Source of the DNA: Chloroflexota bacterium
GTDB taxonomy: Bacteria; Chloroflexota; Limnocylindria; P2-11E; CF-107
Length of the DNA stretch: 62,690 bases
NCBI GenBank assembly: GCA_005881435.1
Contig: VBHP01000006.1
Span: 1 to 62,690 of the forward strand
Reading direction: 5' to 3'
Shown: piece by piece, positions 18,828-38,988 of the stretch
How the letters are laid out: every line of letters begins with the position of its first letter
Position numbering within the stretch: position 1 is the stretch's first letter
The notes under the pieces: generated by a model
Database searches by the model: none
Told to the model about the DNA's origin: nothing
Seen by the model: only the letters and a program-made list of their open reading frames with translations
Made by a program: the position numbers and the translations under genes

Positions 18828-19704
18828 CCGATTCTCGCCCGACGATCCGGCGCAACCGCGTGATCTCTCGTGCGGTCGGTCCGCTGCGCTCGACACCCGG
18901 CACCTCGAGGATCCATGGCACGCGCGCGAGCTCCGGTACCCGCGCCAGCAAGCGCAGTCCGTGCGCGCCGATCCGGCCCTCGCCGGGATTGGCGTGTCGA
19001 TCGCGCCGCGAGCCGCACGGCGTCGCCGAATCGTTGGCGTGCACGACCGCGACGCGCGCGGCGAGCTGCGCCTCTCGCAGCCGGACGGCGAACGCGGTGA
19101 CGCCCGCGGCGCGCGACAGATCAGATCCGTTGGCGTGGGCGTGTGCGAGATCGATCGCGACCCGCGACGCGATCCCCCTCGCGGCGAGCGCGTCGAGCAG
19201 GTCGCGCAGCTCCGAGAGGTCCGCGCCGATCTGGCCGCCGGCGCCGACGCTGTTCTCGAGCACCAGACGGTCGCGTACGCGCGACCGTCGTGCGGCCTCT
19301 CGCAGCGCGTCGAGCACCTGAGCGCGCATCGCTTCGTAACCGCGCCCCTGGTGCGAACCGACGTGCAGCACCGCGCCCGAGAGGCCGGCGATGCGCGCCG
19401 CGCGCAACCCTCGCGCGACCATGTCGATCGAGCGTTCGAGATGCTCCGGGACGATCGAGGCCAGATTCACGAGATACGGCACGTGGACGAATGCGGGTAG
19501 CCGTTCGCGAGCGAGCGCGCGGCGCAGGCGCCGCAGCGCGGGTTCGTCGAGCGGAGTCCGGGGAAAGCGCCGTGGCTGATCGACCCAGACCTGGAGCGCC
19601 TCCGCGCCGATCGCCAGCGCCCGGTCGACGGCATGCTCGTACCCACCCGCCGCGGATACGTGCGCCCCGACTAGAGGATGCCGAGTCCCCGCAGTCCTTG
19701 CCAC
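18805..19704 (-). CDS. nfo: endonuclease IV-like AP endonuclease
   Basis: A 299-residue TIM-barrel protein of the AP endonuclease 2/endonuclease IV family, which cleaves DNA 5' to abasic sites with a zinc cluster. The start LVGAHVSAAGGYEHAV carries the first zinc histidine. FVHVPYLVNLAS, AVLHVGSHQG, LVLENSVGAGGQIG, IDLAHAHANG and VVHANDSATPCGSRRDRHANPGEG-type segments follow in order. The GTG at 19704 overlaps the TauE gene by 34 bases. No standard start lies closer to the conserved beginning. It is last in the minus-strand run and is probably not functionally tied to the catabolic genes. Confidence 0.8.
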   Translation of the reverse strand: MARTAGTRHPLVGAHVSAAGGYEHAVDRALAIGAEALQVWVDQPRRFPRTPLDEPALRRLRRALARERLPAFVHVPYLVNLASIVPEHLERSIDMVARGLRAARIAGLSGAVLHVGSHQGRGYEAMRAQVLDALREAARRSRVRDRLVLENSVGAGGQIGADLSELRDLLDALAARGIASRVAIDLAHAHANGSDLSRAAGVTAFAVRLREAQLAARVAVVHANDSATPCGSRRDRHANPGEGRIGAHGLRLLARVPELARVPWILEVPGVERSGPTAREITRLRRIVGRESATPRRAR

Positions 19705-20426
19705 ACCAGAACGATCGCCGATAGCGCGAGGAAGCCGGAGATCACCCGCCGGAAGATGGCGCTGTCGAGGCGGCGCCGCAGACGCATGCCCACGGCCAGC
19801 GTGACGAGCATCGGCGCGAGAGCCAGCAGGGCGATGCGCACGATCTCGCTGTCGTACTCGCCGAGGCGCCACAGGCCGAGCACCTGCACGGTGCCGAGGA
19901 TCTGGAACAGCAGCGCCAGGGCGACGACAAAGTCGCGTGGGGCCAGGCGCAGCGCGTGGAAGTAGCCGGCGACGGCCGGCGAGGCGATGGATGTCGTGCC
20001 CATCAGCACCCCGCTGATCCCGCCGAGGACCGGCCCGAGCACGCGCACGCGGAGCGCGGCGGGGTCGTCGCCGAGGATTCGATCGCCGCGCGCCAGCACC
20101 AGCAGCACCAGCGCGGCGATCACCAGCGACAGCACATTCGGATCGATCCGCACGAGCAGGTTCAGGCCGACGAGAACGCCGGCGGCGCCGGCGAGCGCGA
20201 TCGGCCAGATCGTACGCAGGACCGGAAACGCGTCGCGGCCCTCGATCAGGAGCAGCAGGTTGGTGACGAAGATGGGGATGCTCATGACCACGACCGCGGT
20301 CCGCGCGCCGAGAACGGTAGCCAGGATCGGCGTGGCGAAGAGCGGCAGGCCCATGCCGGTCACGCCCTTGGCGAGCCCGGCGAGCATGAGCGCGCCGACG
20401 AGCAGCAGGAGCTCGACGAAGCTCAC
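19671..20426 (-). CDS. TauE/SafE-family anion exporter
   Basis: A 251-residue membrane protein with eight or so hydrophobic segments. Both halves begin with the family-type Gly/Pro loop: GLAKGVTGMGLPLFATPIL near residue 20 and GISGVLMGTTSIASPAVAGY near 140. TauE/SafE proteins move sulfite, sulfoacetate or similar organic anions. Its ATG overlaps the stop of the molybdenum hydroxylase large subunit by 4 bases, so it belongs to that operon and may export a pathway product or by-product. Substrate unknown. Confidence 0.8.
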   Translation of the reverse strand: MSFVELLLLVGALMLAGLAKGVTGMGLPLFATPILATVLGARTAVVVMSIPIFVTNLLLLIEGRDAFPVLRTIWPIALAGAAGVLVGLNLLVRIDPNVLSLVIAALVLLVLARGDRILGDDPAALRVRVLGPVLGGISGVLMGTTSIASPAVAGYFHALRLAPRDFVVALALLFQILGTVQVLGLWRLGEYDSEIVRIALLALAPMLVTLAVGMRLRRRLDSAIFRRVISGFLALSAIVLVWQGLRGLGIL

Positions 20427-22411
20427 GCGTCGCGCGCGCGACGGACACGTTCAGGCGTCAGCGGTAGCTCGCGGATGCGAGCGCCGCAGGCGACGAAGAC
20501 GGCGTTCGCGATGGCGGCCGCGATCGGCACGGCGCCTGGTTCCCCGACCCCCGTGGATGCGGCGCTCGCGTCGCCGGCGACGGCGACGTCGATCTCGCCC
20601 GGCGCATCACGAAACGTCGCGATCGGATAAGTCTCCCAGCCGCTCGTGACGATGCGCGCGTCCTTGCGGCGGAGCTCCTCGAAGAGCGTCCACGACGCCG
20701 ACTGCTGGATGCCGCCCTCGATCTGATTGCGCACGCCATCCGGGTTGAGGGTGAGGCCGGGATCGACAGCGGCCCACACCGCTAGCAGCCGGACGCGACC
20801 GGATGCATCGACCTCGACCTCCGCGACCTCGGCGATGTAGGTGCCGTGATAGATGGTCCCGGCGATCCCCAGTCCCTGGCGTTCGCCGCGCGTGTGTCCC
20901 CAACCGCTTCGCTCAGCGACCAGCTCGTAGACCGCGCGCAGACGTGGGTCGTCGATGTGTCGCAGGCGAAAGGCGAGGGGCTCCTGCCGCGACGCATGCG
21001 CGAGCTCGTCCATGAACGACTCGATCGCGAAGATGTTCTCCGACGCCGCGAGCGAGCGGAACGACGCCGTGCGGAGCGGCGTGGGCTCGATATGCAGCAC
21101 GACGCGGGCGCGTGGGATCCGGTAGTGCGGCTCGGCGTTGCGCCCGGACGCCTCGGCGCCCCACCGCGGATCGAATCCGCCGCCGGTATGCACGTTGGTG
21201 TGCTCGTCGTAGCGCCACGCCGCGATCTGTCCGCTCGCATCGAGCGCGGCCGCGACCTCGAGGAACGCCTCCGGTCGGGTCGGTGCGAACGCGAACTCCT
21301 CCGCGCGAGTCCACTGCAGGTGCACCGGGCGGCCGGCGTACTTCGAGAGGATCGCCGCCTCGAGCGGTGCGTCGCCGCTCGAGTTCCGCCCGTATGTGCC
21401 GCTGGGCAACTGTGGGAGGACGCGGACGCTCTGCTCGTCGAGCCCCAGCGCCGTCGCGAGCTCCTCGCGCAGACCGAACGGCCGCTGCGTCCCGGCGTAG
21501 ACGGTCGCCGCGTCGGCGCGGACGTCGGCAACGGCGGCGCTCGGACCGATCGGCGCGTTCGTGATCGGCGGCAGCGAGAAGCTCGCTTCGAGCCGCGTCG
21601 CACCGCCCGCGATCGCTTCGTCCACGCCGGCGTCCTCGCGGATCGGGATCGTCCACCGCTTGCCCTCGGCCGGTCTCTTCACGACCCAATCGACCTCGAA
21701 CGCGTCCGCCGCGGCGCGAGCCTGCTCCTCACGCTCCGCAACGACGCCGACCAGATCGCCGTGACGCACGATCGCGACGACCCCAGCTATCGCCCGCGCG
21801 GCGGCGTCGTCAACCGCACGCGGTGCGGCACCGCGCACCGGCGGCCGCACGACGACGCCGTAGGCCATGTCAGGCAGGCGCACATCGGCCGTGTATCTTG
21901 CCCTGCCAGTGACGATGTCGCGCGCTTCCAGGCGCGGCATCGGCTTGCCGACGTAACGGCGCTCGGACGGATCGCGCGCCGGCACATCGTCGGGAATCCT
22001 TCCGCTGAGCGGCCGCTGGCGTACGAGGTCGGCATACGCGACCCGCATCCCGCCGTCGCACACGAACCCGTCGGCCGTCGAGAGCCGCTCCCGCGGCACG
22101 CGCAACGTTTCGCTGGCGCGAGCGATCAGCTGAGTCCGCGCGAAAGCCGCGGCGCGCCGGAGCACCGGCGATTCCTGCGCGACGGAGCGACTGCCGAACG
22201 TTCCGACGTCGAATGGCACCTGCGCGGTGTCACCGAGCACGACGGTCACGCGCTCGATGGGCACATCCAGCTCGTCCGCCACGAGCTGCGCGAACGCGGT
22301 GCGGATCCCCTGCCCGAACTCGATCTTTCCCGACAGCGCGACCACCGTGCCGTCGGGTTCGATCCGGATCCGGCGCTCGAGCACCTCCGGCTGTCTGCCG
22401 CCGGAGCTCAC
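20423..22411 (-). CDS. molybdenum hydroxylase large subunit (xanthine dehydrogenase/isoquinoline oxidoreductase type)
   Basis: A 662-residue molybdopterin-binding subunit. It begins with a GKIEFGQGIRTAFAQLVADEL block, typical of IorB-type proteins, where the domain order differs from classical XdhB. GDTAQVPFDVGTFGSRS follows, then KPMPRLEARDIVTGRARYTADV, and the C-terminal active-site region STGVGEPGAVPIAAAIANAV, with Glu expected to act as base. It would hydroxylate a carbon of an aromatic N-heterocycle or aldehyde. No FAD subunit or XdhC-type maturation gene is nearby. The GTG overlaps the small-subunit stop by 4 bases. Confidence 0.85.
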   Translation of the reverse strand: MSSGGRQPEVLERRIRIEPDGTVVALSGKIEFGQGIRTAFAQLVADELDVPIERVTVVLGDTAQVPFDVGTFGSRSVAQESPVLRRAAAFARTQLIARASETLRVPRERLSTADGFVCDGGMRVAYADLVRQRPLSGRIPDDVPARDPSERRYVGKPMPRLEARDIVTGRARYTADVRLPDMAYGVVVRPPVRGAAPRAVDDAAARAIAGVVAIVRHGDLVGVVAEREEQARAAADAFEVDWVVKRPAEGKRWTIPIREDAGVDEAIAGGATRLEASFSLPPITNAPIGPSAAVADVRADAATVYAGTQRPFGLREELATALGLDEQSVRVLPQLPSGTYGRNSSGDAPLEAAILSKYAGRPVHLQWTRAEEFAFAPTRPEAFLEVAAALDASGQIAAWRYDEHTNVHTGGGFDPRWGAEASGRNAEPHYRIPRARVVLHIEPTPLRTASFRSLAASENIFAIESFMDELAHASRQEPLAFRLRHIDDPRLRAVYELVAERSGWGHTRGERQGLGIAGTIYHGTYIAEVAEVEVDASGRVRLLAVWAAVDPGLTLNPDGVRNQIEGGIQQSASWTLFEELRRKDARIVTSGWETYPIATFRDAPGEIDVAVAGDASAASTGVGEPGAVPIAAAIANAVFVACGARIRELPLTPERVRRARDA

Positions 22412-22869
22412 CGTCCCACCTCCGCCGCGCGTTTCACCGCGCGTATCGCGCGCCCGTACACGCCGCAGCGGCAGAGATGCATATCGAGCGCAGCGCGGAT
22501 GTCGTCCTCGCTCGGATGCGGGATGCGCTCGAGCAGCGCGGCCGCGGACATGACCATCCCGCTCGTGCAATACCCGCATTGCATCGCGTCCTCCGCGATG
22601 AAGGCATCCTGCACCGGGTGCAGCCGCTCGCCCAGCGCCAGTCCCTCGACCGTGGTGATGGCCTGGGACGCCGCTTGCTCCACCGTTGTGAGACACGACG
22701 CGACCGCGCGGCCGTCCGCGAGCACGTAGCACGCGCCGCACTGGCCGGCGCCGCAGCCGTACCGCGTGCCGGTGAGGCCGAGGTTGTTGCGCAGGACCGA
22801 GAGCAACGTGGTGCTGCGCGGAACGTCGACGTGGCGCTCGATCCCGTTCACCGACAGACGGAAGTTCAT
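22408..22869 (-). CDS. 2Fe-2S small subunit of the molybdenum hydroxylase
   Basis: A 153-residue electron-transfer subunit. The plant-ferredoxin-type cluster motif is CGAGQCGACYVLADG with a later Cys (ASCLTTVE). The second helical domain has the CGYCTSGM and CRCGVYGR motifs that bind the molybdenum-proximal cluster. This is the CoxS/IorA type. The start overlaps the stop of the double nitroreductase gene and the end overlaps the large-subunit start, so the three are translationally coupled. Confidence 0.92.
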   Translation of the reverse strand: MNFRLSVNGIERHVDVPRSTTLLSVLRNNLGLTGTRYGCGAGQCGACYVLADGRAVASCLTTVEQAASQAITTVEGLALGERLHPVQDAFIAEDAMQCGYCTSGMVMSAAALLERIPHPSEDDIRAALDMHLCRCGVYGRAIRAVKRAAEVGR

Positions 22870-24134
22870 CGCGCTGAGCGGTCCTCGAAGATGCCGCGCT
22901 CCGAGCGCCACACCGCCGGCAACGGCGCGATCCCCGGGTCCTCGCCGGGGTGGCCATCGAACCCGTGCTCGCGTGCGAGCTCGTTGCGATCGAGCCGCCT
23001 CGTCGCCGGGGGCGCTTCGGCGGGCTCGCCGATCGCGATCACGCCGAGAAGCTCTTCGTCGGCTGGGACAGCGAGCGCGGCGCGGGCGAGATCGTGCACC
23101 AGCTGCCGCACCAGGACCGCGCCGAGGGTGATCGCGGTCGCCTGAACCCACAGGTTCTCGGCCGCCAGCGAGGCGCCGATCAGGTGGGTCATCTCCCCGT
23201 GCACGTGCGGTCCGATCTTTTGCGGGTCGGCCGTGATGGCGATCACGACGGGCGCGGAGACGAGGTCGACGCGCGGTTCGCCGGACAGACCGAGATCTGC
23301 GTTGGCCTCTCGGGCGAGGTCGGCCGCGCGCTGCAGACGCTCGCGTACGGCGCGGTCGCGGACCACGATGAACCGCCAGGGCTGGAAATTACCCGCGGAC
23401 GGCGCCCAACGCGCGGATTCGAGCAGAAGCGTGACGCGCGCGTCATCCAGCGGTGCGTCGGTGAAGCGCCGGACCGAACGCCGGCGCCGGATCGCGTCCG
23501 TGATATCGAGCTCGTCGCGCGGCGTCTGCGGCGGCGGCCAGTGGCTCGCGTTCCCGAACCGATCGACGAACGCGATCTGCTCCAGCGACTTGCGATGCAG
23601 CGCGGCCCGCCGCTCCTTGGTGTCGAGAGGCACCGGCCAACCCAGACAGAGCAGACCGATGAACGACCATGTGCGCGGGACATCCAGAAGCATCTTCGCT
23701 TTCTCCTCGATCCAGTGCGTGTACAGCACCGCGCCGAGCCCCTCGGCGTGTAGTTGCAGCTTCATGTTCTGGATCGCGGCGGCCGCCGCGACGAGGTGCC
23801 CGCCGCGATCGCCGGCGTAACCTCCGGAACGCGACGGGTCGGCAACGATCACATATTCGCGCACGCCGGTCGGACGGAACATCGCGACCCAGTACGAAGA
23901 GATGCGCTTCGACTCTTGCGCGATCGCCTGTAGCGCGGGCAGGGTCGCGCGGTCCGTCTCGGGCCGCAGCACGATGAGTCGCACCGGCTGCGCGTTCCCG
24001 GCGGAGGGCGCCCACCGCGCGGCGTCGATGATCCGCTCGAGCGTGTCGCGGGTGACGGGCGCGTCCGCGAACGTTCGTACAGTGCGGCGCTCGCGGATCA
24101 CGTGCGAGGTCCGGAGATCGAGCGCGACGGTCAC
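22866..24134 (-). CDS. tandem (two-domain) nitroreductase-family flavoprotein
   Basis: A 422-residue protein with two nitroreductase domains in one chain. Domain 1 (about 10-200) begins IRERRTVRTFADAPVTRDTLERI with WAPSAGNAQP. Domain 2 (about 215-385) begins IRRRRSVRRFTDAPLDDARV with WAPSAGNFQPW. Most family members are single-domain homodimers of about 200 residues, so this is an intramolecular pseudo-dimer. FMN binding is expected from the R-R-S/T-x-R and SAGN motifs. The role (reductase, dehydrogenase or ring-modifying) is open. It is GTGA-coupled to the upstream hydrolase and overlaps the ferredoxin subunit start. Confidence 0.85.
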   Translation of the reverse strand: MTVALDLRTSHVIRERRTVRTFADAPVTRDTLERIIDAARWAPSAGNAQPVRLIVLRPETDRATLPALQAIAQESKRISSYWVAMFRPTGVREYVIVADPSRSGGYAGDRGGHLVAAAAAIQNMKLQLHAEGLGAVLYTHWIEEKAKMLLDVPRTWSFIGLLCLGWPVPLDTKERRAALHRKSLEQIAFVDRFGNASHWPPPQTPRDELDITDAIRRRRSVRRFTDAPLDDARVTLLLESARWAPSAGNFQPWRFIVVRDRAVRERLQRAADLAREANADLGLSGEPRVDLVSAPVVIAITADPQKIGPHVHGEMTHLIGASLAAENLWVQATAITLGAVLVRQLVHDLARAALAVPADEELLGVIAIGEPAEAPPATRRLDRNELAREHGFDGHPGEDPGIAPLPAVWRSERGIFEDRSAR

Positions 24135-25204
24135 GACTCGAGTTTCTCCCGCATCCAGTCGGCCATCGCGGGACGGTACTTGTACGGGATGTTGTTGCAG
24201 ACGTGGTTGCCCTCGGGATAGAGCAGCAGCGTCGCGTTCGGAGCCTCGCGCGCGATCCGCTCCGCCTGCTCCGCCGGGAAGAGACGATCCCTCGCGCCGT
24301 GGATCACCAGCAGCGGCTGCTTCACGTCGGCGAGCACCCCGTGGAGGGTCAAGGCCTTCGCCCTCTCGAACGCCTCGTCCTCGTCGCGCGACCAGGTATA
24401 GAAGAGGTAGCCACCTTTGGTCAGCGGATTGAGCGCCGCCCAGCATTCGGCGAGATCGTACGGGCCGGCGAGCGCGACGATGGCTTTGAGTCGCTTCTCC
24501 TTCGCGGCGGCCCGCGGACCGTAGATCCCGCCCATGGAGATGCCCATGAGGCCAACCCGCCTCAGGTCGACGCCGCGATCGCGCACTGCGAGACCATCGA
24601 GCAGCGGAGCGATCACGGTGTCCCAGTTCGCGCGGATCGGGAAGCGTGGCGCGTTCTCGCCCTGACCCGGGCCGTCGATCGCCAGCGTGGCCATATCGCG
24701 ACGGAGGAACTCCTCCTCGATCGTGAAGAGCTCCTCCTTCACCGAATCCAATCCGGGCACGAGGAGCACCAGCGGCGGACGCGAGCGGCCCGCCGGCCGG
24801 CGCAGGATCCCCGGAATCACCGCACCCTCGAAGGCGACCTCGATCCGTTCCCCCGCCGGGTCCAGCCTCGGGAGCGCCAACGCGTATGTCGCCACCGTCA
24901 GATCGCGAAGCCGATCGTGAAGCGTGCGGTCCTCGAACCACAGGAACTTCCCGAGGTGGTAGGACCAGGCCGCGCGCTGGTACGCCGCCGTGGCGGTGAG
25001 GGTGCGCCGCGCGGTCGCGGCTTCATCGGCCAGTGCTTTGTGCATGTCGCCGACACGCTGCCACGCTGGTGCCCATTCTCGCCAGTCGGTCGTCTCGGCG
25101 AGCACGCGTTCGAAGTCATTGACGTCGATCCCGTTCGCGACGAAGCGCGGCTTCCAGTGCGACGCCGCGAGCTGCACGCGGTTGGCCTCGTCAACGGCCG
25201 ACAC
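24131..25204 (-). CDS. alpha/beta hydrolase, dihydroxypseudooxynicotine hydrolase-like
   Basis: A 357-residue hydrolase. An N-terminal helical cap of about 120 residues precedes an alpha/beta core. The nucleophile serine is in GISMGG, the acid aspartate probably in HGARDRLFP, and the histidine in EGNHVCNN. The oxyanion region is VLLVPGLDSVKEE. The cap plus core arrangement and length match the FrsA-like group that includes 2,6-dihydroxypseudooxynicotine hydrolase, a C-C bond hydrolase of nicotine breakdown. Ester hydrolases share the fold, so the reaction is inferred. GTG start. Confidence 0.75.
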   Translation of the reverse strand: MSAVDEANRVQLAASHWKPRFVANGIDVNDFERVLAETTDWREWAPAWQRVGDMHKALADEAATARRTLTATAAYQRAAWSYHLGKFLWFEDRTLHDRLRDLTVATYALALPRLDPAGERIEVAFEGAVIPGILRRPAGRSRPPLVLLVPGLDSVKEELFTIEEEFLRRDMATLAIDGPGQGENAPRFPIRANWDTVIAPLLDGLAVRDRGVDLRRVGLMGISMGGIYGPRAAAKEKRLKAIVALAGPYDLAECWAALNPLTKGGYLFYTWSRDEDEAFERAKALTLHGVLADVKQPLLVIHGARDRLFPAEQAERIAREAPNATLLLYPEGNHVCNNIPYKYRPAMADWMREKLES

Positions 25205-25277
25205 GCGGACGCTCCCGGAACTTGTCGTACTCGCCGCACCAGGTATCCAGGCCGCGGCGCCCGTAGGACACGTTCAC
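25191..25277 (-). CDS. possible 28-residue peptide coupled to the E2 gene
   Basis: A short frame starts with GTG whose last two bases are shared with the E2 stop (GTGA overlap at 25274-25277, the same junction type used elsewhere in this operon). It ends 14 bases inside the hydrolase start. The peptide is basic and aromatic, with the core YGRRGLDTWCGEYDKF and a single Cys. No family is known to me. It could be a real microprotein, a relic, or a chance frame used only for translational coupling. Confidence 0.35.
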   Translation of the reverse strand: MNVSYGRRGLDTWCGEYDKFRERPRVGR

Positions 25278-26389
25278 GTGCCGAGCTCGCGCACGATCGA
25301 CTCCAGGAAACGCGCGGCGTCGGCGCCATCCGCCACGCGATGATCGACCGAGAGCGTGAGCGTCGCGACCTTGCGGATCGCCAGCGCGCCGTCGCGCGCC
25401 ACGACGCGATCGGCGACGCGCCCGACGGCGAGGATCGCCGGTTCCGGAGGGTTCACCAGCGCGGTGAACGTATCGACGCCGAGCGTGCCCAGGTTCGAGA
25501 CCGTGAGCGTCGCGTCGCCGAGCGCATCCGCGGGCAGCCTTCCATCGCGCGCACCTGCTTCCAGCGTCTCGCGCTCGCGGCGGAGCGAGGCGAGATCCTT
25601 TCGGTCGGCGTCGCGGATGACCGGGACGATGAGTCCGGCGTCGAGCGCTACCGCCACACCGACGTGCGCGCGGTCGCTCGTGACAGTCGCGTCGCCGTCG
25701 AATCGCGAGCGGAAACGCGGATGCTCGCGCAGCGCCTTGGCACACGCGGCAACGATCACGTCCGTATACGAGACCGCCATCTCCCGGCGCCGCGAGTCGG
25801 CCGCGGTCATGTCGACGTCGCGCGAGATCGCGAACTGCGGCACCTCGCGGTTCGAACGCGACATCGCTTCGGCGACCGCCCGGCGCATCCGGGTCAGCGG
25901 CTCGCGTCGCTCCGCTAGCACGGCGCTCGTCGCCACGGCGTCGACGTCTTCGATCTGGATGCGACCGCCCGGCCCGGTGCCGCGCAGTGCCGCGATATCG
26001 ACGCCGAGCTCTAGCGCGCGCTTCTTTGCCGCTGGACTTGCTTTGACACGGTCACTGTCCTGGATCTGCTCGCGGGTAGGCAGCGCCGCGGCCGGAGCCT
26101 CGGGCTCAGTGATCAGCGCCGCGACGCTCGCGCGCTCCGGTATCGGTTCGTCCGCGCTGTCGGCGATGAACGCGATAACCTGCGCCACAGGCGCGTAGTC
26201 GCCCTCGCTCAGGAGCAGCTTGCGCACGATGCCGGACGCCGGCGCCTCGACTTCCATCGTGGCCTTGTCCGTCTCGACCTCGAAGAGCACGTCGCCCGCG
26301 GCCACGCGGTCGCCCTCGCGCTTGCGCCATGCGACCAGCCGGCCCTCCTCCATCGTCAGCCCGAGTTTCGGAAGGATCACCGGCGTCAC
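25274..26389 (-). CDS. 2-oxo-acid dehydrogenase E2 (dihydrolipoyl acyltransferase)
   Basis: A 371-residue E2. The N-terminal lipoyl domain (residues 1-78) carries the lipoylated lysine in ETDKATM (about Lys42). An Ala/Pro/Glu linker leads to the peripheral subunit-binding domain (SPAAKKRALELGVDIAALRG, about 115-150). The catalytic domain ends with LSVDHRVADGADAARFL, the acyltransferase histidine motif. It transfers the acyl group from E1 to CoA. The acyl specificity is not decided; acetoin- or pyruvate-type complexes fit. The GTG lies 2 bases after the E1beta stop. No E3 is encoded in the window. Confidence 0.9.
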   Translation of the reverse strand: MTPVILPKLGLTMEEGRLVAWRKREGDRVAAGDVLFEVETDKATMEVEAPASGIVRKLLLSEGDYAPVAQVIAFIADSADEPIPERASVAALITEPEAPAAALPTREQIQDSDRVKASPAAKKRALELGVDIAALRGTGPGGRIQIEDVDAVATSAVLAERREPLTRMRRAVAEAMSRSNREVPQFAISRDVDMTAADSRRREMAVSYTDVIVAACAKALREHPRFRSRFDGDATVTSDRAHVGVAVALDAGLIVPVIRDADRKDLASLRRERETLEAGARDGRLPADALGDATLTVSNLGTLGVDTFTALVNPPEPAILAVGRVADRVVARDGALAIRKVATLTLSVDHRVADGADAARFLESIVRELGT

Positions 26390-26391
26390 GC

Positions 26392-27393
26392 TCAACCGAC
26401 GAGCCCCTTGGCGGCGTGGACGATGTCGTCGACCTGCGGCACGACGCTCTTCTCGAGATGCTGTGCGTACGGGATCGGCGTCTCCAGTCCCGCGAGCCGC
26501 TTCGGCGGCGCGTCGAGATCGTCGAAGGCTTCTTCCGCCACCAGCGAGGCGATTTCGGCGCCGTAGCCGGCGCGCTTGACGGCCTCGTGGACGACCAGGA
26601 GTCGATGCGTCTTGCGGACCGAGCGCAGGATCGTCTCGCGGTCGAGCGGCACGAGGGTGCGGACATCGATGACCTCGGCGGCGATGCCCTCGTCCGCGAG
26701 CTTCGCGGCCGCGTCGAGCGAGAAGAGCACCTCGCGGGACCACGTCACGATCGTGAGGTCGGATCCCTCGCGCTTGACGTCGGCGACGCCGAGCGGCACG
26801 ACGTGCTCGCCGGTCGGCACTTCGCCCTTGGTGCGGTAGAGGAGCTTGTGCTCGATGAAGATCACCGGGTTGTCGTCGCGAATCGCGGCGGCGAGGAGAC
26901 CTTTCGCGTCGGCGGGCGTCGATGGCATGACGACCTTCAAGCCCGCGACGTGCGCGACCCAGGCCTCGAGCGACTTCGAATGCTGCGCGGCGTTCCCGCG
27001 TCCCGAGCCACCCTGGGTGCGCAGCACCATCGGCACGCGCGCCTGGCCACCGAACATGAACCGGTTCTGCGCCGCCTGGTTCACGATCTGATCCATGGCG
27101 AGCCCCATGAAGTCGACGTACATGAGCTCGACGACGGGACGCAGGCCGGTGAGCGCGGCGCCGACGGCCATCCCGACGATGCCGTTCTCGCTGATGGGAG
27201 TGTTCTTGACGCGATCCTTGCCAAACTCCTTGAGCAGCCCCGCGGTCACCTGGAATGCGCCGCCGTGCGCGGCGATGTCCTCGCCGAAGATGACGACGCG
27301 TTCGTCGCGTCTCAGCTCCTGACGGAGCGCGTCGCCGAGCGCCTCGGCGTAGAACATCTCGCGAGTCGCCGACGGAGCTTCCTTAAGTTGCAT
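26392..27393 (-). CDS. 2-oxo-acid dehydrogenase E1 beta subunit
   Basis: A 333-residue transketolase-like subunit that pairs with E1alpha to bind thiamine diphosphate. [18 protein letters not shown] near the N-terminus contains the catalytic-type Glu. [17 protein letters not shown] and [15 protein letters not shown] follow, and the C-terminal part is [29 protein letters not shown]. The sequence type is that of acetoin/pyruvate/branched-chain dehydrogenase E1beta. Its start overlaps the E1alpha stop by 11 bases. Confidence 0.92.
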
Positions 27394-28348
27394 ACACGTC
27401 CTCCGGAAGCGTGATCGGCGACGCGGGCGGGCTGGCCTCCGCGAACTTCACTCCCCGCTCGACCGCCGCGTCGACCTCCGTGTCGATGCGATCGAAATCG
27501 GCCGGGCTCGCCAGCTTCTCCGTGAGGATCCAGTCGCGGGCGATGGCGAGCGGGTCGCGTTTCGCGCGCCACTCCTCGATCTCCTCCTTGCTGCGATACA
27601 CCTGTGGATCGCCGTAGTAGTGGCCGCCGTAGCGGTACGTGTCCATCACCAGCAGCGTCGGCCCGTCGCCGCGGCGCGCCCGCGCGACCGCCTCGCCGCC
27701 CGCACGATACGTCTCGCGCACGTCCTGGCCGTTCACCGTCACGCCCGGCATGCCATATCCCGCGGCGCGCGTCGCGATGTCCTCCACCGCGAACGCGTCG
27801 CGCACCGGGTTCGTCTCGGCGTACTGATTGTTCTCGAGCACGAACACGACCGGTAAGGCCCAGATCGCGGCGAGGTTGAGGCCTTCGTGGAACGTGCCCT
27901 GGTTCGCGCCGCCGTCGCCGAAGTACGACACCGCAACGCGATCGGTCTTCGTCTGCTTCGCGGTTAGCGCGGCACCGACGGCGATCGGGATGCCGCCACC
28001 AACGATGCCGTTCGCGCCAAGGTTCCCCTTGGACGTGTCGGCGATGTGCATCGACCCGCCACGGCCTCGGCAGTATCCCGTTTCTCTCCCAAGCAGCTCG
28101 GCGAACATCTTTCCGAGATCGGCACGCTTCGCGATGCAGTGGCCGTGACCGCGGTGCGTAGAGGTGATCCAATCGTCGTCGCGAAGATGCGCTGAGACGC
28201 CCGCCGCGACGGCCTCCTGGCCGGAGTAGTTGTGGATGGTGCCCCAGATCTTGTTCTCGCCGAATAGCTGCTCGGCGCGTTGCTCGAAACGGCGGATCGT
28301 TCCCATGACGCGATAGAGCTCGAGCGCAGTGTCGCGAGCGATGTTCAT
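27383..28348 (-). CDS. 2-oxo-acid dehydrogenase E1 alpha subunit (acetoin/pyruvate type)
   Basis: A 321-residue TPP-binding subunit. The TPP/Mg motif is [20 protein letters not shown], ending in ENNQYAE (about residues 143-175). [10 protein letters not shown] and [19 protein letters not shown] are the other family marks. Closest in style to acetoin dehydrogenase alpha (AcoA) and short PDH E1alpha, though the specificity is not certain. The start ATG at 28348 lies 10 bases after the upstream alcohol dehydrogenase gene, within the same operon. Confidence 0.9.
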
Positions 28349-28358
28349 GTCGGCCTCC

Positions 28359-29396
28359 TCACGGTTCGAGCATCACCCGGATCGCGCCCTCGCGTCGCTC
28401 GCGGAACGTCTGCCACGCCTCGGCGAACCGCTCGAGCGCGAAGTGGTGCGTCGTGAGCGCGCGCACGTCGACGAGCCCGCGCGCGAGAAGCGCGAGCGCC
28501 CGACCCGACACGCCCATCGGATTAGCGACAGAGCCGAGGACGTCAAGATGACCGCGCACAATGGTCGAGAGGTCGACGCCCGAAAGCTCGACGCCGGTGC
28601 CGGTCGACCCGCCCAGCACCACGCGCCCGCCTCGCCTCGCCGTCGCGATCGCCTCGCGCGCGGCCTCGGCAGTCCCGGCGAATTCGACGACGAGGTCGGC
28701 CGTCCCCGCAAGCGTCGAGACGTCCTTCTCATCCGCGATGGCGTCCGCGAACGGCTTCGCGCGCTCGAGCCGCGCCCCGCGGCCGACAACGGTGACGCAC
28801 GCCGCGCCGAGCGCTCGCGCAAGCTGCGCGGTGCAGAGCCCGATCGCACCGGATCCGAACACAACGACGCGCTCGCCCGCCTTAAGCCGTCCGCGCTCTA
28901 GCGCCCACAGCGAGACTCCGAGGTTGTCGGTCCACGCGCCCTCCCTGGTGTTCACGTTCGCGGGCAAGGGATGCACGGCCGCCAGCGGAACGCTCGCGTA
29001 TTCGGCCAGACCACCCGGGACCGTGAAGCCGATGTGCGCGTGTCCCCGCTCCGGATGTCCGTAGTTGAGGCAGAGGTTGTAAAGACCCTCGCGGCAGCGG
29101 TCGCATGATCCGCAGCCCACGTGGACCTCAATGCCGACGTGCGCGCCGAGGGGCAGCGACGTCACGCCCTCACCGAGCCCGACGACGTGCCCGGCGAACT
29201 CGTGACCCGGCACGTGGGGGAATTTCGTGCCGGCGAACTTTCCGGCGAGCACTTTCGCGTCCGTCGCGCAGATCATTGACGCCTGGACTCGGATGAGGAC
29301 GTGGCCGCGCGGCGGCCGCGGCACGTCGACGTCGGTGACCTCGAACTCGTTCGGCTTCGGGAACAGGACTGCGCGCATCCGCGCCGGGACGCTCAC
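28359..29396 (-). CDS. zinc-dependent medium-chain alcohol dehydrogenase (first)
   Basis: A 345-residue MDR-family enzyme. Catalytic zinc ligands are Cys in MICATDA and the GHE of PGHEFAGHV. The structural zinc lobe has four cysteines (CGSCDRCREGLYNLC). The NAD(P) fold is VVVFGSGAIGLCTAQLA. It resembles threonine/sorbitol dehydrogenase-type proteins. GTG at 29396 is preferred because it makes the GTGA overlap with the OsmC stop used across this operon. The internal ATG at 29378 is an alternative giving 339 residues. It probably oxidises a hydroxyl intermediate. Confidence 0.85.
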   Translation of the reverse strand: MSVPARMRAVLFPKPNEFEVTDVDVPRPPRGHVLIRVQASMICATDAKVLAGKFAGTKFPHVPGHEFAGHVVGLGEGVTSLPLGAHVGIEVHVGCGSCDRCREGLYNLCLNYGHPERGHAHIGFTVPGGLAEYASVPLAAVHPLPANVNTREGAWTDNLGVSLWALERGRLKAGERVVVFGSGAIGLCTAQLARALGAACVTVVGRGARLERAKPFADAIADEKDVSTLAGTADLVVEFAGTAEAAREAIATARRGGRVVLGGSTGTGVELSGVDLSTIVRGHLDVLGSVANPMGVSGRALALLARGLVDVRALTTHHFALERFAEAWQTFRERREGAIRVMLEP

Positions 29397-29881
29397 GGGA
29401 CGCGCTCCCAGATGGAGTCGAACTCGAGCGGCGCCGCGCGCAGGAGCGTCGCCACGGGACAGCAGCGCTCGACCACCTCTCGCAATCGCTCGACGCGCTC
29501 GGCGCCATCCGGCGTGCGCAGGCGTGCCCGCACGACCACACGTAGGAAGTGCGCTGGCACGTCGGCGGCGCCTTTCCGTCCCCGCACGTCGATGACGCCC
29601 TCCGCGGCGATCTCGAACGCGTCGACGCGCAGGCGCATCCGCTCGGCGACCCGTTTCATGGTGACCGCCTCGCACGCGCAGAGGCCGGAGAGGACGAGCT
29701 GGAGCGGAGTCGGTCCCGCATCCTTCCCTTCACGCGTCGGCGGCTCGTCGGCGATGAAGTGGTGCCGCCCGGCCTGCAGGTCGGTCCGCATGTCGCCGGC
29801 CCACGTGCCGTGGACGCGGATCGTCGACAGCTCCGGCGTCCCCGCCTTTCCCGCGAGCGTTTCGCGGGCCGTCGCGGTCAC
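29393..29881 (-). CDS. OsmC/Ohr-family protein
   Basis: A 162-residue protein of the OsmC fold. The two redox cysteines are present: LSGLCACEAVTM in the central helix and ERCCPVATLL in the second. The adjoining EPPTREGKDAGPTPLQLVLSG segment is typical of the YhfA-like branch. OsmC proteins reduce organic peroxides or act as thiol-dependent helpers. In this operon it may protect oxygen-sensitive enzymes or process a thiol adduct, which is inference. The GTG overlaps the nitroreductase stop. Confidence 0.85.
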   Translation of the reverse strand: MTATARETLAGKAGTPELSTIRVHGTWAGDMRTDLQAGRHHFIADEPPTREGKDAGPTPLQLVLSGLCACEAVTMKRVAERMRLRVDAFEIAAEGVIDVRGRKGAADVPAHFLRVVVRARLRTPDGAERVERLREVVERCCPVATLLRAAPLEFDSIWERVP

Positions 29882-30489
29882 GGGTGCGGGTCCCCGGGGA
29901 AGTGGTCGATGTAGACGACCTGCTCGAACGGCAGGCGTTCACCGTCCTTCTCCTCCGCGGCGTAGCCGCAGGTAAAGGTTCCCAAGAACGTCCAGCGCAG
30001 CGGCACGTTCAGGATGCGTTTCGCTTTCTCGGTGATCCAGTGCTGCACGAACACCGCGCCGAGCCCGAGCGAGTGTGCCCGGAGCCACATGGCGTAGATC
30101 GACATCGCCGCGGCCCACTCGAACCCGTTGTCGTAGTGGACGTTCGTCAGGCTCTTGGCGGGATCGGAGCACACCGCGATGACCGTCGGCGTGATGAGGT
30201 CGTTCACGAGCGCCGATTTGCCGCCCGACCGGAACTGCGCGTCCCAGTAGGCCGACAGGTCCTTGGATTCGCGCGCCAGCGCCTGCAGCTCGTCCTTGAG
30301 CTTGCGGTCCTTGACCCAGATGAATCGCGCCGGCTGCAGGTTCGCCGGAGAAGGCGCCCAGCGGCCGGCCTCGAGGATCTCGCGGACGAGATCGTCGGGC
30401 ACGGCGCGCTCCGCGAACTTGCGGATCGCGCGCCGCGTACGCATCACCTCGGCGAGGTCCACGCGGCCTTCGGTCCGAACGTTGGTCAC
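29878..30489 (-). CDS. nitroreductase-family FMN protein (single domain)
   Basis: A 203-residue flavoprotein with the usual EVMRTRRAIRKFAERAVPDDLV start, WAPSPANLQPARF at the FMN site, and AMWLRAHSLGLGAVFVQHW in the second half. Unlike the two-domain protein of the same operon it has the normal length and would act as a homodimer. The substrate is unknown. GTGA overlaps link it to the alcohol dehydrogenase upstream and to OsmC downstream. Confidence 0.85.
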   Translation of the reverse strand: MTNVRTEGRVDLAEVMRTRRAIRKFAERAVPDDLVREILEAGRWAPSPANLQPARFIWVKDRKLKDELQALARESKDLSAYWDAQFRSGGKSALVNDLITPTVIAVCSDPAKSLTNVHYDNGFEWAAAMSIYAMWLRAHSLGLGAVFVQHWITEKAKRILNVPLRWTFLGTFTCGYAAEEKDGERLPFEQVVYIDHFPGDPHP

Positions 30490-31568
30490 GGCTCGACGAT
30501 CACTTTGAGCGCTCCATCGATCCGCTGGTTGAAGGTGCGCAGCGCCTCGCCGAACCGGCGGAGCGCGAAGTGGTGCGTGATCAGCTTCGCGGCCGGGATG
30601 CGCCCGTCGGCTATCAGCGGCATGACCTCCTCCATGGTGTTGCGGTTCGCGCGTACGCCGTAGAGATCGAGCTCTTCGAGCACGATCTTCTGGAATTCGA
30701 TCTGCGACGGCTCTTTCGGGATGCCAGTGAACGCGACCCGTCCGCCCTTGCGGACCATCAGGATCGCCTGCCGCACCGAGTCCTTCGTCCCGGCGGAGTC
30801 GACAGCGACATCGGCGCCACGGTCATCGGTCATGGCGCGCACGCGCGCGACCGGATCGCCGTCGTGGTAGTCGACGGTCTCGAAGCCGAGCTCGCGAGCG
30901 CGATCGAGCCGCTTTCCGCCGCCGACCACGATGCAGCGCGCCGCGCCGAGAGCGCGGGCGCACATCGCGGTGAGCAGGCCGATACCTCCGGAGCCGACAG
31001 CGACGAAGACGTCCGCCGGTTCGATGCCGGGTCGCTTCACCGAGTGGAGCGCGATGGAGGCCGTGTCGCACAACGCGGCGACGTCGAATGGCATCGCAGC
31101 GGGGATCGGGAACACCGCCTTGATGGTGTGCACGACGTAGTCGGCATAGGCCCCCTGCGTGTAGTGGCCGTACTGGCGGTGGCCGAGATCCTCGCGACCG
31201 TAGTTGAAGCAGAGGTTGTAGCGGCCCGTGCGGCACATGCGGCAATAGCCGCAACCGGAGTGCGACGTGCCCGCGATGCGTGTGCCTGGCACGAAGCCAA
31301 AGCGCTTCGCCACCTCGCCGGCGTCGACGACCTCACCGGCCCACTCGTGCCCAGGGGTGAAGGGATACGCGCGCGGCCAGCGTCCCTTGAAAGTGCCTTC
31401 GACGATCTCGGCATCGGTGCCGCAGATCGCGATCGCGTGGACGCGCGCCAGGATCTCGTTCGCGCCGGGGCGTGGGATCGGAATGCTCCGAATCTCGAAT
31501 TCGTGCGGCGCCGTGAGCACGAGCGCCTGCATCTCGCCGGTCTTAGGCGGCGCGGCGACGGCGCTCAT
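30486..31568 (-). CDS. zinc-dependent medium-chain alcohol dehydrogenase (second)
   Basis: A 360-residue MDR-family dehydrogenase. Catalytic zinc Cys is in AICGTDAEI and the His-Glu in PGHEWAGEV. The structural zinc cysteines lie in CGYCRMCRTGRYNLC. The NAD-binding loop is VAVGSGGIGLLTAMCA. It is distinct from the first dehydrogenase (longer N-terminus and a HTIKAVFPIP segment), so two successive or parallel alcohol oxidations are plausible. The ATG at 31568 overlaps the cyclase stop (ATGA), which argues against the longer frame. Confidence 0.87.
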   Translation of the reverse strand: MSAVAAPPKTGEMQALVLTAPHEFEIRSIPIPRPGANEILARVHAIAICGTDAEIVEGTFKGRWPRAYPFTPGHEWAGEVVDAGEVAKRFGFVPGTRIAGTSHSGCGYCRMCRTGRYNLCFNYGREDLGHRQYGHYTQGAYADYVVHTIKAVFPIPAAMPFDVAALCDTASIALHSVKRPGIEPADVFVAVGSGGIGLLTAMCARALGAARCIVVGGGKRLDRARELGFETVDYHDGDPVARVRAMTDDRGADVAVDSAGTKDSVRQAILMVRKGGRVAFTGIPKEPSQIEFQKIVLEELDLYGVRANRNTMEEVMPLIADGRIPAAKLITHHFALRRFGEALRTFNQRIDGALKVIVEP

Positions 31569-32326
31569 GGCAAAAACGCCACCACGCGACAGATGCAACC
31601 CTCGCCGCCGACCCAGCGCCAGGGGAACGCGCCGACGTCGACGCGCTTCCCCGCGACCTCGGCGAGCTCGCCGCCGAGGTTCTCCAGCATCGGGATGTTC
31701 GCTTTGGCCATGTGGTAGTGGATGTGCTCGAAGTCCTTCATCGGAAGCGTCTCGTCGATCGCCTTGCCGGTTTGCGTCTCGTACTCCTTCACCAGATCGG
31801 GACGGAAATACCGCACGCGGACGTACAGCGAGTGGTCCATCGATGCGAGATCGGCGCCGATCATGCGGATGCCCTTGTCGACGAGCCAGTCACAGACTTC
31901 GGGCTGGGGACCGGGGTGTCGGTCGAAGTAGGTCACGTCGTCGCGTGTCGACTTCGTCCAGTTGTACCGGTCCCAGCCCGTATAGAGGATCACCACGTCG
32001 CCGGCTCGGACGTGCTCGCCGCGCGGGAGACAGCCTTCGATGTCCTTCCGCGTGTAGTGCGCCCAGGGCTTGGTGATCGGGCGGAGGTCGACGATCAGCG
32101 CACTGCCGTACAGCTCCTGGATAGGGATCTGACCCAGATCCTTTCCGGTGGGCCAGTAGTGGCTCGGGGCATCGATGTGCGTCCCCGTATGCATGTTCGT
32201 GCGCACGAGCACAGTGCTCTTGCCGTCGCGATGGTGCGTCGTGATGTCCGTGACCTGGATCGCCTCGAACTGGGGCCAGGTCGGCATCCGGTCGCCCCAA
32301 GCCTGCGTGAGGTCGACGAGCTTCAT
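31565..32326 (-). CDS. cyclase-family metal hydrolase (kynurenine formamidase-like)
   Basis: A 253-residue protein of the cyclase/KynB superfamily. The metal-binding signature is HTGTHIDAPSHY (about residues 46-57). DVVILYTGWDRYNW and IGADLASMDH are the other conserved parts, and histidines in FEHIHYHM complete the set. Members hydrolyse cyclic or linear amides and related bonds (formylkynurenine, isatin, cyclic imides). In this operon it could open a ring or cleave an amide of the imported compound, which is inference. It lies 19 bases from the binding-protein gene. Confidence 0.82.
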   Translation of the reverse strand: MKLVDLTQAWGDRMPTWPQFEAIQVTDITTHHRDGKSTVLVRTNMHTGTHIDAPSHYWPTGKDLGQIPIQELYGSALIVDLRPITKPWAHYTRKDIEGCLPRGEHVRAGDVVILYTGWDRYNWTKSTRDDVTYFDRHPGPQPEVCDWLVDKGIRMIGADLASMDHSLYVRVRYFRPDLVKEYETQTGKAIDETLPMKDFEHIHYHMAKANIPMLENLGGELAEVAGKRVDVGAFPWRWVGGEGCICRVVAFLP

Positions 32327-32345
32327 CGGTCGTAAGCCGAATTCA

Positions 32346-33404
32346 TCAGTACGGGAAGTCCTTCTTGCCGAGTTGCGCGACGACCTTGGACGCGATCGTC
32401 AGGTCGACCACGTCCGCGAAAGTCAGGTCCTTCTTGATCTTTCCGAAGTCCTTCTCGCTCTTGATCGTGCCCTCGATATTCGCTTTCGGCACGCCCTCGT
32501 TCTGCGGCCAGGCTTTGGCCTTCACGAGGGCGTCGAACGTGTCCGCGACGACGTCCTGCGGCTCCTGGGTGAACTTCACCCCGACGTCGATGATCTTCTG
32601 GCGGTTCGCCGGGTCGTACATCGCGCGGTTCGCCTTCATGAGGGCGCGGACGATGCACTCGGTCGTCGCTGGATCGTCCTTTAAGGTCTGCGTCGGCACG
32701 ACATAGACCGAGTACTGGTAGTCCGTGAGGACCTCCCACATGTTCGTGAGCACGTGGATATTCGGATTCTGCTTCGAAGCGTTCTTCACCTGGTCGATGT
32801 GGAGCACCGCGGTATCGGTCGCTCCGCTCGTGAGCTGCTGGACGCGGCCGGCGGTCGTTGTCTGTACGAAGGTGACGTCTTTGTCGGAGATGCCAGCGGT
32901 CTTGAGCACGATGCGCGTCATAACATCGGCGAAGCCGCCCGGCTCTTGCACGCCCATCTTCTTGCCCTTCAGGTCGGCAAGAGTCTTGACGTTGGGGCCA
33001 ACCGCGAAGGACACGTCGACGTTGGGCGCGTACGAGTACACGACCTTCACCTCGGCGCCGTTCGCGATGGCATCGATCACTGGCTCGGACGACGTGCCCG
33101 CGAGGTCGATCGCGCCCGAGGCCGAGGCGCGGAGCGAGCCGACGCCGCCTTCGAAGCGGATGAGCTCGACGGTCAGGTTTTCGTCCTTGAAGTAGCCGAA
33201 CTCATTCGCGACGTACGGCGTCAGGTGCACGACGTTCGGCGGCGTGACCGGCACGGCGATGGTGATCTTTTTCGATTGGCACGTCGCCTTCGCTGCGGCG
33301 CTCGGCGACGGCGACGTTCCACCTGCGGGCGTAGCCCCGCCGCCGCAGGCCGAGACGAGCAACGCGGTGACCATTCCCAGCGCGAGCACGCGTAGAGATC
33401 GCAT
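32346..33404 (-). CDS. ABC transporter substrate-binding lipoprotein (NMT1/SsuA type)
   Basis: A 352-residue periplasmic-type binding protein anchored by a lipobox (LLVSACGGG). The fold is type II of the NMT1/SsuA/ThiY group: KITIAVPVTPPNVVHLTPYVANEFGYFKDENLTV at the start, then GVGSLRASASGAIDLAGTSSEP and LADLKGKKMGVQEPGG. This group captures sulfonates, nitrate, pyrimidines and other small anions or aromatics. The ATG at 33404 is preferred to the longer frame because a clear AGGAGG lies 9 bases upstream (33414-33419). Confidence 0.85.
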   Translation of the reverse strand: MRSLRVLALGMVTALLVSACGGGATPAGGTSPSPSAAAKATCQSKKITIAVPVTPPNVVHLTPYVANEFGYFKDENLTVELIRFEGGVGSLRASASGAIDLAGTSSEPVIDAIANGAEVKVVYSYAPNVDVSFAVGPNVKTLADLKGKKMGVQEPGGFADVMTRIVLKTAGISDKDVTFVQTTTAGRVQQLTSGATDTAVLHIDQVKNASKQNPNIHVLTNMWEVLTDYQYSVYVVPTQTLKDDPATTECIVRALMKANRAMYDPANRQKIIDVGVKFTQEPQDVVADTFDALVKAKAWPQNEGVPKANIEGTIKSEKDFGKIKKDLTFADVVDLTIASKVVAQLGKKDFPY

Positions 33405-33420
33405 GTGGTTACCCCTCCTG

Positions 33421-34248
33421 CTATTGCTCACGTCGCAGCCACGGTGCGACGCGGCCCTCGATCCATTGCACGAAGCTCATCAGAAGGATGCCCATCGCGG
33501 ACACCACGACGACCGGCACGAACATGCGGTCGATGCGGAAGACGTTCTCGTACGCGATGATCAAATATCCGAGGCCGACGAGGCCGATGAGGAACTCCGC
33601 GACGATCATCCCGATCAGTCCTCGTCCGATCGCAAGGCGCACGCCGGCGAGGACGAACGGCGTCGCGGAGGGCAGGATCACGTCGGTCCACAGCCGCCGC
33701 TCGCTGGACGAGAAGGCGCGCGCGACCTCGAGCAGCGATTGATCCACGTTGCGCACGCCCTGCTGCGTGTTGATGAGGATCGGGAAGATCGCGAACAACG
33801 CGACGGTCGCGATCCGTGGCTCGTCGCCCATCGCCGCGCGACCGAAGGCGACCGAGATGAGCGGGACGAGCGCGACGGACGGAGTCGAGTAGAGCGCGCC
33901 GACGATCGGATCGATCGCGTTGTAAATGAAGCGGTTGCGGCCCGAGGCGACGCCAATGAGGATTCCCGCGACCAGCGCGATCGCCATGCCCGCCGCGAAT
34001 TCACGCAGGCTCTGGCCGAACGCCTCCTGCAGCTCTCCCGTACCGACGAGCTCGAAGAACGCGCGGAAGATCGCGGACGGCGGCCGCAGGATCAGTGGAT
34101 TCAGCCGCGGTCCCGCGAACTCCCACAGTCCGAGCACGAGGGCCACGGAACCGAGGCGCACGGCCCAATCGGAGAGATGCAGGCGTCCGGCGCGACGGCG
34201 CGCCACGACGGCGGAGGCCGCTGTCGCCTGCGCTTCTCGAATCGTCAT
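33421..34248 (-). CDS. ABC transporter permease (SsuC/TauC type)
   Basis: A 275-residue permease with about six transmembrane helices. The ATPase-contact EAA loop is visible in VARAFSSSERRLWTDVILPSATPFVLAGVRLAIGRGLIG. The N-terminal SLREFAAGMAIALVAGILIG segment is typical of SsuC/TauC importers. Its start overlaps the stop of the ATPase gene (4 bases). With the neighbouring ATPase and binding protein it forms a complete importer. Confidence 0.9.
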   Translation of the reverse strand: MTIREAQATAASAVVARRRAGRLHLSDWAVRLGSVALVLGLWEFAGPRLNPLILRPPSAIFRAFFELVGTGELQEAFGQSLREFAAGMAIALVAGILIGVASGRNRFIYNAIDPIVGALYSTPSVALVPLISVAFGRAAMGDEPRIATVALFAIFPILINTQQGVRNVDQSLLEVARAFSSSERRLWTDVILPSATPFVLAGVRLAIGRGLIGMIVAEFLIGLVGLGYLIIAYENVFRIDRMFVPVVVVSAMGILLMSFVQWIEGRVAPWLRREQ

Positions 34249-36055: not shown

Positions 36056-36063
36056 GGAAATCG

Positions 36064-36092
36064 ATTGCACGGCACGCCGCGCGGGTTGTCAA
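36064..36092 (-). promoter_or_regulatory. sigma-70-type promoter of the catabolic operon
   Basis: Reading the minus strand, TTGACA (36092-36087) is a perfect -35, followed by a 17-base spacer and TGCAAT (36069-36064, four of six matches to TATAAT). Transcription would begin at about 36057, two or three bases before the GTG at 36055, giving a nearly leaderless mRNA. The -35 overlaps the presumed ATG of the divergent LVIVD gene. No clear LacI-type operator palindrome was found, though it may lie here. Confidence 0.6.
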
Positions 36093-38904: not shown

Positions 38905-38988
38905 CAACGGGACATTCTCATTCTGACAGCGAACCGGCGCGCGCGGCAGACTGTTCGCGCGCTGTGCCGCCGCCCATTATTCGGCGCC

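Follow-up and report, generated by a model that had tools for sequence, protein, structure and literature searches.

A Mo hydroxylase encoded beside a hydrolase that resembles 2,6-dihydroxypseudooxynicotine (DHPON) hydrolase raises the question of whether this locus breaks down an N-heteroaromatic compound much as nicotine is degraded, or serves some other catabolic purpose. The window, a 62,690-nucleotide stretch of contig VBHP01000006.1 from a Chloroflexota bacterium, does contain all parts of the gene group on which the original prediction was built (the hydrolase, the fused double nitroreductase NTR2 and the Mo hydroxylase subunits MoS and MoL), and all are intact, but together they form only the tail of a 17-gene unit on the minus strand (19671-36070) that runs from a LacI regulator to a TauE permease. 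Nearly every junction in this unit is an overlap or a short gap, the longest gap being the 69 bases from the E2 gene to the hydrolase gene. The predicted GTGA-type linkage was found as 4-base overlaps from the hydrolase through NTR2 and MoS to MoL, reading GTGA at hydrolase/NTR2, MoS/MoL and also MoL/TauE, and ATGA at NTR2/MoS. Comparison of the window with a second genome (G363) by alignment and palindrome scan gave no clear common LacI operator site.

Genes of the 17-gene unit, in order of transcription, and two further genes of the window
Feature	Coordinates	Strand	Basis
LacI-family regulator, first gene	35012..36070	-	Pfam LacI + Peripla_BP_3; ATGA overlap with next gene
ABC transporter ATPase, taurine/nitrate type	34245..35015	-	Pfam ABC_tran; NCBIfam taurine ATPase 216 bits, below cut-off; start set at 35015 from the ATGA overlap
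ABC transporter permease	33421..34248	-	Pfam BPD_transp_1
ABC substrate-binding protein, NMT1/SsuA type	32346..33431	-	Pfam NMT1; NCBIfam SsuA_fam below cut-off
Cyclase-family metal-dependent hydrolase	31565..32326	-	Pfam PF04199
Zn-dependent dehydrogenase ADH1	30486..31568	-	Pfam ADH_N/ADH_zinc_N; start from ATGA overlap
Single-domain nitroreductase NTR1	29878..30489	-	Pfam Nitroreductase; orthologues in sister operons
OsmC-like protein	29393..29881	-	Pfam OsmC
Zn-dependent dehydrogenase ADH2	28359..29378	-	Pfam
Dehydrogenase E1 alpha, pyruvate/acetoin type	27383..28348	-	Pfam E1_dh; best PDB match PDH E1alpha
Dehydrogenase E1 beta	26392..27393	-	Pfam
E2 acyltransferase	25274..26389	-	Pfam 2-oxoacid_dh, Biotin_lipoyl, E3_binding (lipoyl and E3-binding domains)
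Alpha/beta hydrolase, DHPON hydrolase/AntI kind	24131..25204	-	Sequence, predicted fold, catalytic residues
Fused double nitroreductase NTR2	22866..24134	-	Pfam and half-by-half scans
Mo hydroxylase [2Fe-2S] subunit (MoS)	22408..22869	-	Pfam Fer2, Fer2_2; cysteine pattern
Mo hydroxylase large subunit (MoL), IorB/NicB type	20423..22411	-	Pfam MoCoBD_1/2; VGEPG glutamate
TauE/SafE-type permease	19671..20426	-	Pfam TauE
Aldehyde dehydrogenase, SSADH-like, not in the 17-gene unit	40506..41918	-	NCBIfam NADP-SSADH best model
TPP enzyme, acetolactate-synthase type, not in the 17-gene unit	37297..38907	-	NCBIfam PRK08322 above cut-off

Sequence and predicted fold both put the hydrolase alongside DHPON hydrolase and the C-C bond-cleaving enzyme AntI and not among the carboxylesterases, so that its original placement stands. 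Among solved structures, DHPON hydrolase of pAO1 (2jbw) is the closest match in both respects, leading the PDB sequence matches (E 1.9e-38) ahead of AntI (1.5e-25), with FrsA and Wdyg1p far weaker, and the predicted model (pLDDT 87.5, pTM 0.87) gives TM scores of 0.87-0.88 against 2jbw, 0.84 against AntI (6hxa), about 0.8 against FrsA and Wdyg1p and 0.5-0.6 against single-domain esterases. The Ser-Asp-His triad is intact (S223, D306, H334) and is accompanied by the acidic D153 of a GLDS loop. AntI shares the fold, triad and GLDS loop but has a role in polyketide biosynthesis and is 24% identical in the structural alignment, whereas DHPON hydrolase shares the triad and carries Glu instead of Asp as the acid of its GLxS loop. 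In Ayg1p, the equivalent loop acid belongs to a network proposed to drive an enol-keto shift (PMC11165489). Because FrsA also has GLDS, the triad and this loop are no proof of C-C cleavage, and the family may include esterases or thioesterases.

From the gene content and junctions, the family and catalytic residues of the hydrolase and a recurring neighborhood of E1/E2, importer and LacI genes, we infer with moderate confidence a catabolic operon under LacI control that handles an organic compound brought in from outside, with a retro-Claisen-type C-C cleavage beside a ketone as its key step. The ABC importer would take up the compound, the Zn-dehydrogenases would convert alcohol groups to ketones, and the serine hydrolase, perhaps together with the cyclase-family hydrolase, would cleave the ketone, its serine forming an acyl-enzyme while the GLDS-loop acid aids the enol-to-keto shift. 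The cyclase-family protein has weak PDB matches to kynurenine formamidase and isatin hydrolase, and its family contains a retro-Claisen enzyme, DPGC (PMC10470551). An E1/E2 complex would then convert a 2-oxo acid or acyloin product to an acyl-CoA, and the 40506 dehydrogenase, possibly with the Mo enzyme, would oxidize an aldehyde. The presence of other E1alpha-like genes and E1beta paralogues elsewhere in the genome suggests that this E1/E2 complex is specific to the operon, although it could instead handle pyruvate or acetoin in the ordinary way. A route of cyclitol catabolism by IolM-like dehydrogenases was considered and set aside, the models falling below cut-off and the literature lending no useful support.

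The Mo enzyme conforms to the two-subunit type of IorAB, NicAB and NdhAB, in which a [2Fe-2S] small subunit and a Mo large subunit occur without an FAD subunit. MoS has eight cysteines in the pattern of two [2Fe-2S] clusters, and MoL has the IorB domain order, with the conserved glutamate in VGEPG and only about 15 residues ahead of the conserved domain; it lacks the long C-terminal extension seen in NicB-like proteins of 1200 residues. In the tree, MoL falls in a clade with the NicB-like proteins and not with the solved aldehyde dehydrogenase 8gy3, which agrees with the original prediction, though the clade does not give the substrate. NdhA differs in being only 27% identical and in lying in a separate clade, on a long branch joined to 8gy3. 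MoL also differs in type from Kdh and Ndh of Arthrobacter, which are three-subunit enzymes with an FAD subunit and the other domain order. The annotated operon genes include, as predicted, neither an FAD subunit nor an amine oxidase; however, the missing FAD subunit is no sound argument against known nicotine chemistry, because NdhAB of Agrobacterium S33 is also without one (PMC5500553, PMC7688666).

The role of the Mo hydroxylase looks accessory, and it is quite possible, if somewhat short of probable, that this enzyme, whether an aldehyde oxidoreductase or something else, became attached to the operon and lies outside the hydrolase pathway, an arrangement compatible with every other reading. 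Most MoL orthologues have no link to the hydrolase, and in genomes of the same order they occur away from it; in G075, which has no hydrolase match at E 1e-12, the Mo genes lie beside an ALDH and a TPP enzyme, and homologues of the 40506 and 37297 genes adjoin the Mo genes in L167. The best PDB match of MoL is likewise the large subunit of an aldehyde dehydrogenase, but identity to 8gy3 is only 28.6%, compared with 36-38% to the NicB-like proteins. Against a bystander also stand the fully overlapping genes of the window, the adjacency of Mo genes to the hydrolase both here and in one relative (L005), and the fact that, in several lineages, hydrolase homologues have a Mo hydroxylase of one type or another nearby.

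Orthologues of the hydrolase are found in MAGs of Chloroflexota, Dormibacterota and Myxococcota, most often accompanied by E1/E2 genes, an ABC importer and LacI. Within 10.5 kb, and in counts that take in some near-duplicate loci, E1alpha was present at 17 of 24 orthologue loci and a Liv importer and LacI at 16/24 each, and the group of 39-50% identity had Liv at 13/14, E2 at 10/14 and M24 at 10/14 loci; homologues below 38.5% identity had E1 or E2 at 0/11. The neighbor sets vary by lineage, with the cyclase gene and Zn-dehydrogenases in the window operon and M24 and others elsewhere, and therefore indicate no single product set. A broader proposal, which we offer tentatively and regard as somewhat doubtful, is that these loci represent a widespread, undescribed pathway, shared by soil members of the Chloroflexota, Dormibacterota and Myxococcota, that combines a DHPON-hydrolase-like C-C hydrolase with an operon-specific TPP-dependent E1/E2 complex and has in several lineages recruited Mo hydroxylases, with NTR2, in the window operon, as a possible electron partner of the FAD-less Mo enzyme. 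In the 177 genomes of the class, the fused NTR2 occurs just once; a BluB identity for it was rejected, the NCBIfam cut-off of 150 bits being passed only as a two-domain sum (halves 85.8 and 77.1 bits). The soil lineages with this operon have been described largely from MAGs, and little is known about the carbon sources they use; a recurring neighborhood around a likely C-C hydrolase gives a concrete starting point for tests aimed at a substrate from plants or soil.

One special case of the retro-Claisen reading has the hydrolase removing an acyl group from a plant hydroxylated aromatic ring, such as a flavonoid or an acyl-phenol fragment, which we consider unlikely. The substrates of AntI, Ayg1p and Wdyg1p are aromatic polyketides (PMC11165489), and a hydrolase 25% identical to DHPON hydrolase sits in an isoflavone catabolism cluster (PMC11069340), a location that does not show its reaction. 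Rhizobial homologues adjoin an intradiol dioxygenase and BKACE, but in them Ala takes the place of the nucleophile, which may mean a different chemistry, and no ring-cleaving dioxygenase or other ring-cleaving enzyme was identified among the annotated operon genes of the window.

Small weight also goes to an ordinary esterase, thioesterase or peptidase function for the hydrolase, with a likeness to DHPON hydrolase in fold only. It bears the Pfam label FrsA-like esterase, and SMU_737, called an acylaminoacyl peptidase, matches the model with a TM score of 0.82-0.83; C-C cleaving enzymes nevertheless top both the sequence and the structure rankings.

The nicotine comparison itself remains. The window resembles the Arthrobacter pyridine pathway (Kdh, Ndh, DHPON hydrolase) in having a Mo hydroxylase and a related hydrolase close together, and on pAO1, too, a cyclase-family gene lies close to the hydrolase gene. 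The FLWFED and LNPLTK motifs of the window hydrolase and its orthologues, mostly absent in the 39-48% group, match FLWFDE and ETPLTK of DHPON hydrolase. Judged from identity (28-32%) and the tree, however, the window hydrolase and DHPON hydrolase are not orthologues: the two are not sisters, their gene neighbors differ, and their grouping was rejected at an AU p of 0.025, a mild rejection given the long branch of DHPON hydrolase. The predicted succinate-semialdehyde-type (SSADH) dehydrogenase at 40506 fared better in part, since the gene is present and its homologues (60-69%) adjoin hydrolase homologues in L013, L091 and L175 and Mo genes in L167, but its best NCBIfam model, NADP-SSADH, scored 610 bits against a cut-off of 730.

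Other components of the nicotine route were sought as well. The annotated operon genes contain no hydroxynicotine oxidase gene and no 2,6-dihydroxypyridine hydroxylase or other ring monooxygenase, and within 10.5 kb a 6-hydroxynicotine-oxidase homologue was found at 0/24 orthologue loci and 0/14 loci of the 39-50% group; among the loci examined, only pAO1 has one adjoining a hydrolase homologue. A PF01593 protein beside many orthologues, a candidate amine oxidase of the sister loci, proved CrtO/CrtI-like by NCBIfam and PDB matches, which rules it out as a homologue of that oxidase. It is quite improbable that the operon degrades an N-heteroaromatic in the nicotine or nicotinate manner, the Mo enzyme hydroxylating the ring and the hydrolase freeing the side chain as a semialdehyde: the kinship of the hydrolase, the NicB-like MoL and the SSADH-like link speak for this original proposal, but the lack of orthology and of the oxidase, and the absence of Mo genes from most orthologous operons, speak against it. 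Likeness to a nicotine enzyme does not in itself imply nicotine use. A minor point concerns DHPON hydrolase itself, for which a review gives Glu248 as the acidic residue; residue 248 of the sequence is Trp, and from the sequence Glu148 in the GLES loop is likely the residue intended.

The gene set on the minus strand of the window (19671-36070) is supported as a catabolic operon whose hydrolase is of the kind represented by 2,6-dihydroxypseudooxynicotine hydrolase (DHPONH) of plasmid pAO1 and the C-C-cleaving AntI. In a PDB search with the hydrolase, DHPONH (2jbw) ranked first and AntI (6hxa) second, with Wdyg1p and FrsA much weaker. A structure model built from 22 orthologues (pLDDT 87.5) superposed on 2jbw with a TM-score of 0.87-0.88 and on AntI with 0.84, compared with about 0.8 for FrsA and Wdyg1p and 0.5-0.6 for single-domain esterases. 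Ser223, Asp306 and His334 are conserved, as is Asp153 in a GLDS loop. In Ayg1p the loop acid belongs to a network for which a role in driving the enol-keto shift has been proposed (PMC11165489), and in DHPONH this role has been ascribed to a glutamate (PMC6122326); the GLDS loop is not specific, however, because FrsA carries it too. Judging from family membership, the hydrolase would share the cleavage chemistry of DHPONH and AntI.

The closeness of the relationship to DHPONH was assessed in a tree of 44 sampled sequences, in which the orthologues formed a fully supported clade to which DHPONH was not sister. Forcing the two together was rejected (p 0.025), a value to be read with caution given the long branch of DHPONH. 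The FLWF and PLTK motifs are nonetheless common to DHPONH and the orthologues and mostly absent from the homologues of 39-48% identity. Tandem duplicated hydrolase homologues occur in two genomes (L082:8811-11034 and L087:8539-10909). In rhizobial homologues (L039:11986-13053, L040:11989-13041, L041 and L044) an alanine replaces the nucleophilic serine (GMAFGG), with the aspartate and histidine kept; their neighbors encode an intradiol dioxygenase, BKACE, a Zn-dehydrogenase and a cupin.

The hydrolase, double nitroreductase, [2Fe-2S] and Mo subunit genes overlap by 4 bases at each junction, and a TauE-type permease gene downstream of the Mo subunit overlaps in turn. Between the hydrolase and the LacI gene that limits the unit upstream lie, counted from LacI, genes for an ABC ATPase, a permease, a binding protein, a cyclase-family hydrolase and a Zn-dehydrogenase, followed by a nitroreductase, OsmC, a second Zn-dehydrogenase, E1alpha, E1beta and E2; additional E1 genes are present elsewhere in the genome. 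The gene spacing suggests that the whole unit may be read as one transcript. Both halves of the double nitroreductase are nitroreductases, neither of which reaches the BluB cut-off. Of 177 genomes of the class, this was the one in which the fusion was seen, the other matches covering the first half. Homologues of the LVIVD-repeat protein encoded divergently from LacI adjoin Mo genes in one other genome (G363) and a hydrolase paralogue in another (G292).

Coordinates of selected operon genes and two further genes of the window
Feature	Position	Strand	Remark
LVIVD-repeat protein	35982-37295		divergent from LacI gene
LacI regulator	35012-36070	-	upstream limit of unit
Hydrolase	24131-25204	-	intact
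Double nitroreductase	22866-24134	-	intact
[2Fe-2S] subunit	22408-22869	-	intact
Mo subunit	20423-22411	-	intact
Aldehyde dehydrogenase	40506-41918		

A single genome scan gave 35 hydrolase loci, in MAGs of Chloroflexota, Dormibacterota and Myxococcota. Neighbors were scored within 10.5 kb at loci flanked by 15 kb or more; as a few loci are near-duplicates, the figures are counts rather than independent events. Orthologue loci have E1alpha (17/24), a Liv importer (16/24), LacI (16/24) and a CrtO/CrtI-like flavoprotein (12/24) nearby; in the 39-50% group the counts are 13/14 for Liv, 10/14 for E2 and 10/14 for M24. No E1 or E2 was found within 10.5 kb at the lower-identity loci (<38.5%). A small cupin gene (L043:12851-13201 and L039:11049-11381) adjoins the DHPONH gene on pAO1 and is also encoded close to the hydrolase homologues of Shinella and Rhizobium.

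A Mo large subunit is encoded near the hydrolase homologue at 4 of 24 orthologue loci, 3 of 14 in the 39-50% group and 2 of 11 lower-identity loci, the window and pAO1 included. By a rough reckoning from gene numbers per genome (2 to 13 listed in the 24 genomes checked, 4 in that of the window), about 4% of loci would have one by chance, and the excess is suggestive only. The Mo subunit has the IorB domain order and is 36-38% identical to NicB-like proteins, compared with 28.6% to the aldehyde dehydrogenase 8gy3 and 27% to the nicotine dehydrogenase subunit NdhA; in the tree it groups with NicB-like and Shinella proteins in a clade outside which lie NdhA and 8gy3, both on long branches. NdhAB of strain S33 likewise lacks an FAD subunit. 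Mo orthologues in genomes of the same order are mostly unlinked to the hydrolase, following an aldehyde dehydrogenase and a TPP enzyme in G075 and adjoining the other end of the operon in G363.

The original prediction had joined the Mo hydroxylase, the hydrolase and the aldehyde dehydrogenase in a possible N-heteroaromatic pathway. The grouping draws its best support from pairwise linkage elsewhere, albeit in different genomes: homologues of the aldehyde dehydrogenase adjoin hydrolase homologues at three loci (L013, L091 and L175; 60-69% identity) and Mo genes at a fourth (L167; 71%). As to the pathway, N-heteroaromatic compounds are one possible substrate of the operon, and the order of steps is one that we infer. 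At L167 (5251-10682) the aldehyde dehydrogenase, TPP enzyme and Mo hydroxylase genes are adjacent, in a genome (G075) where no match to the hydrolase was obtained at E 1e-12.
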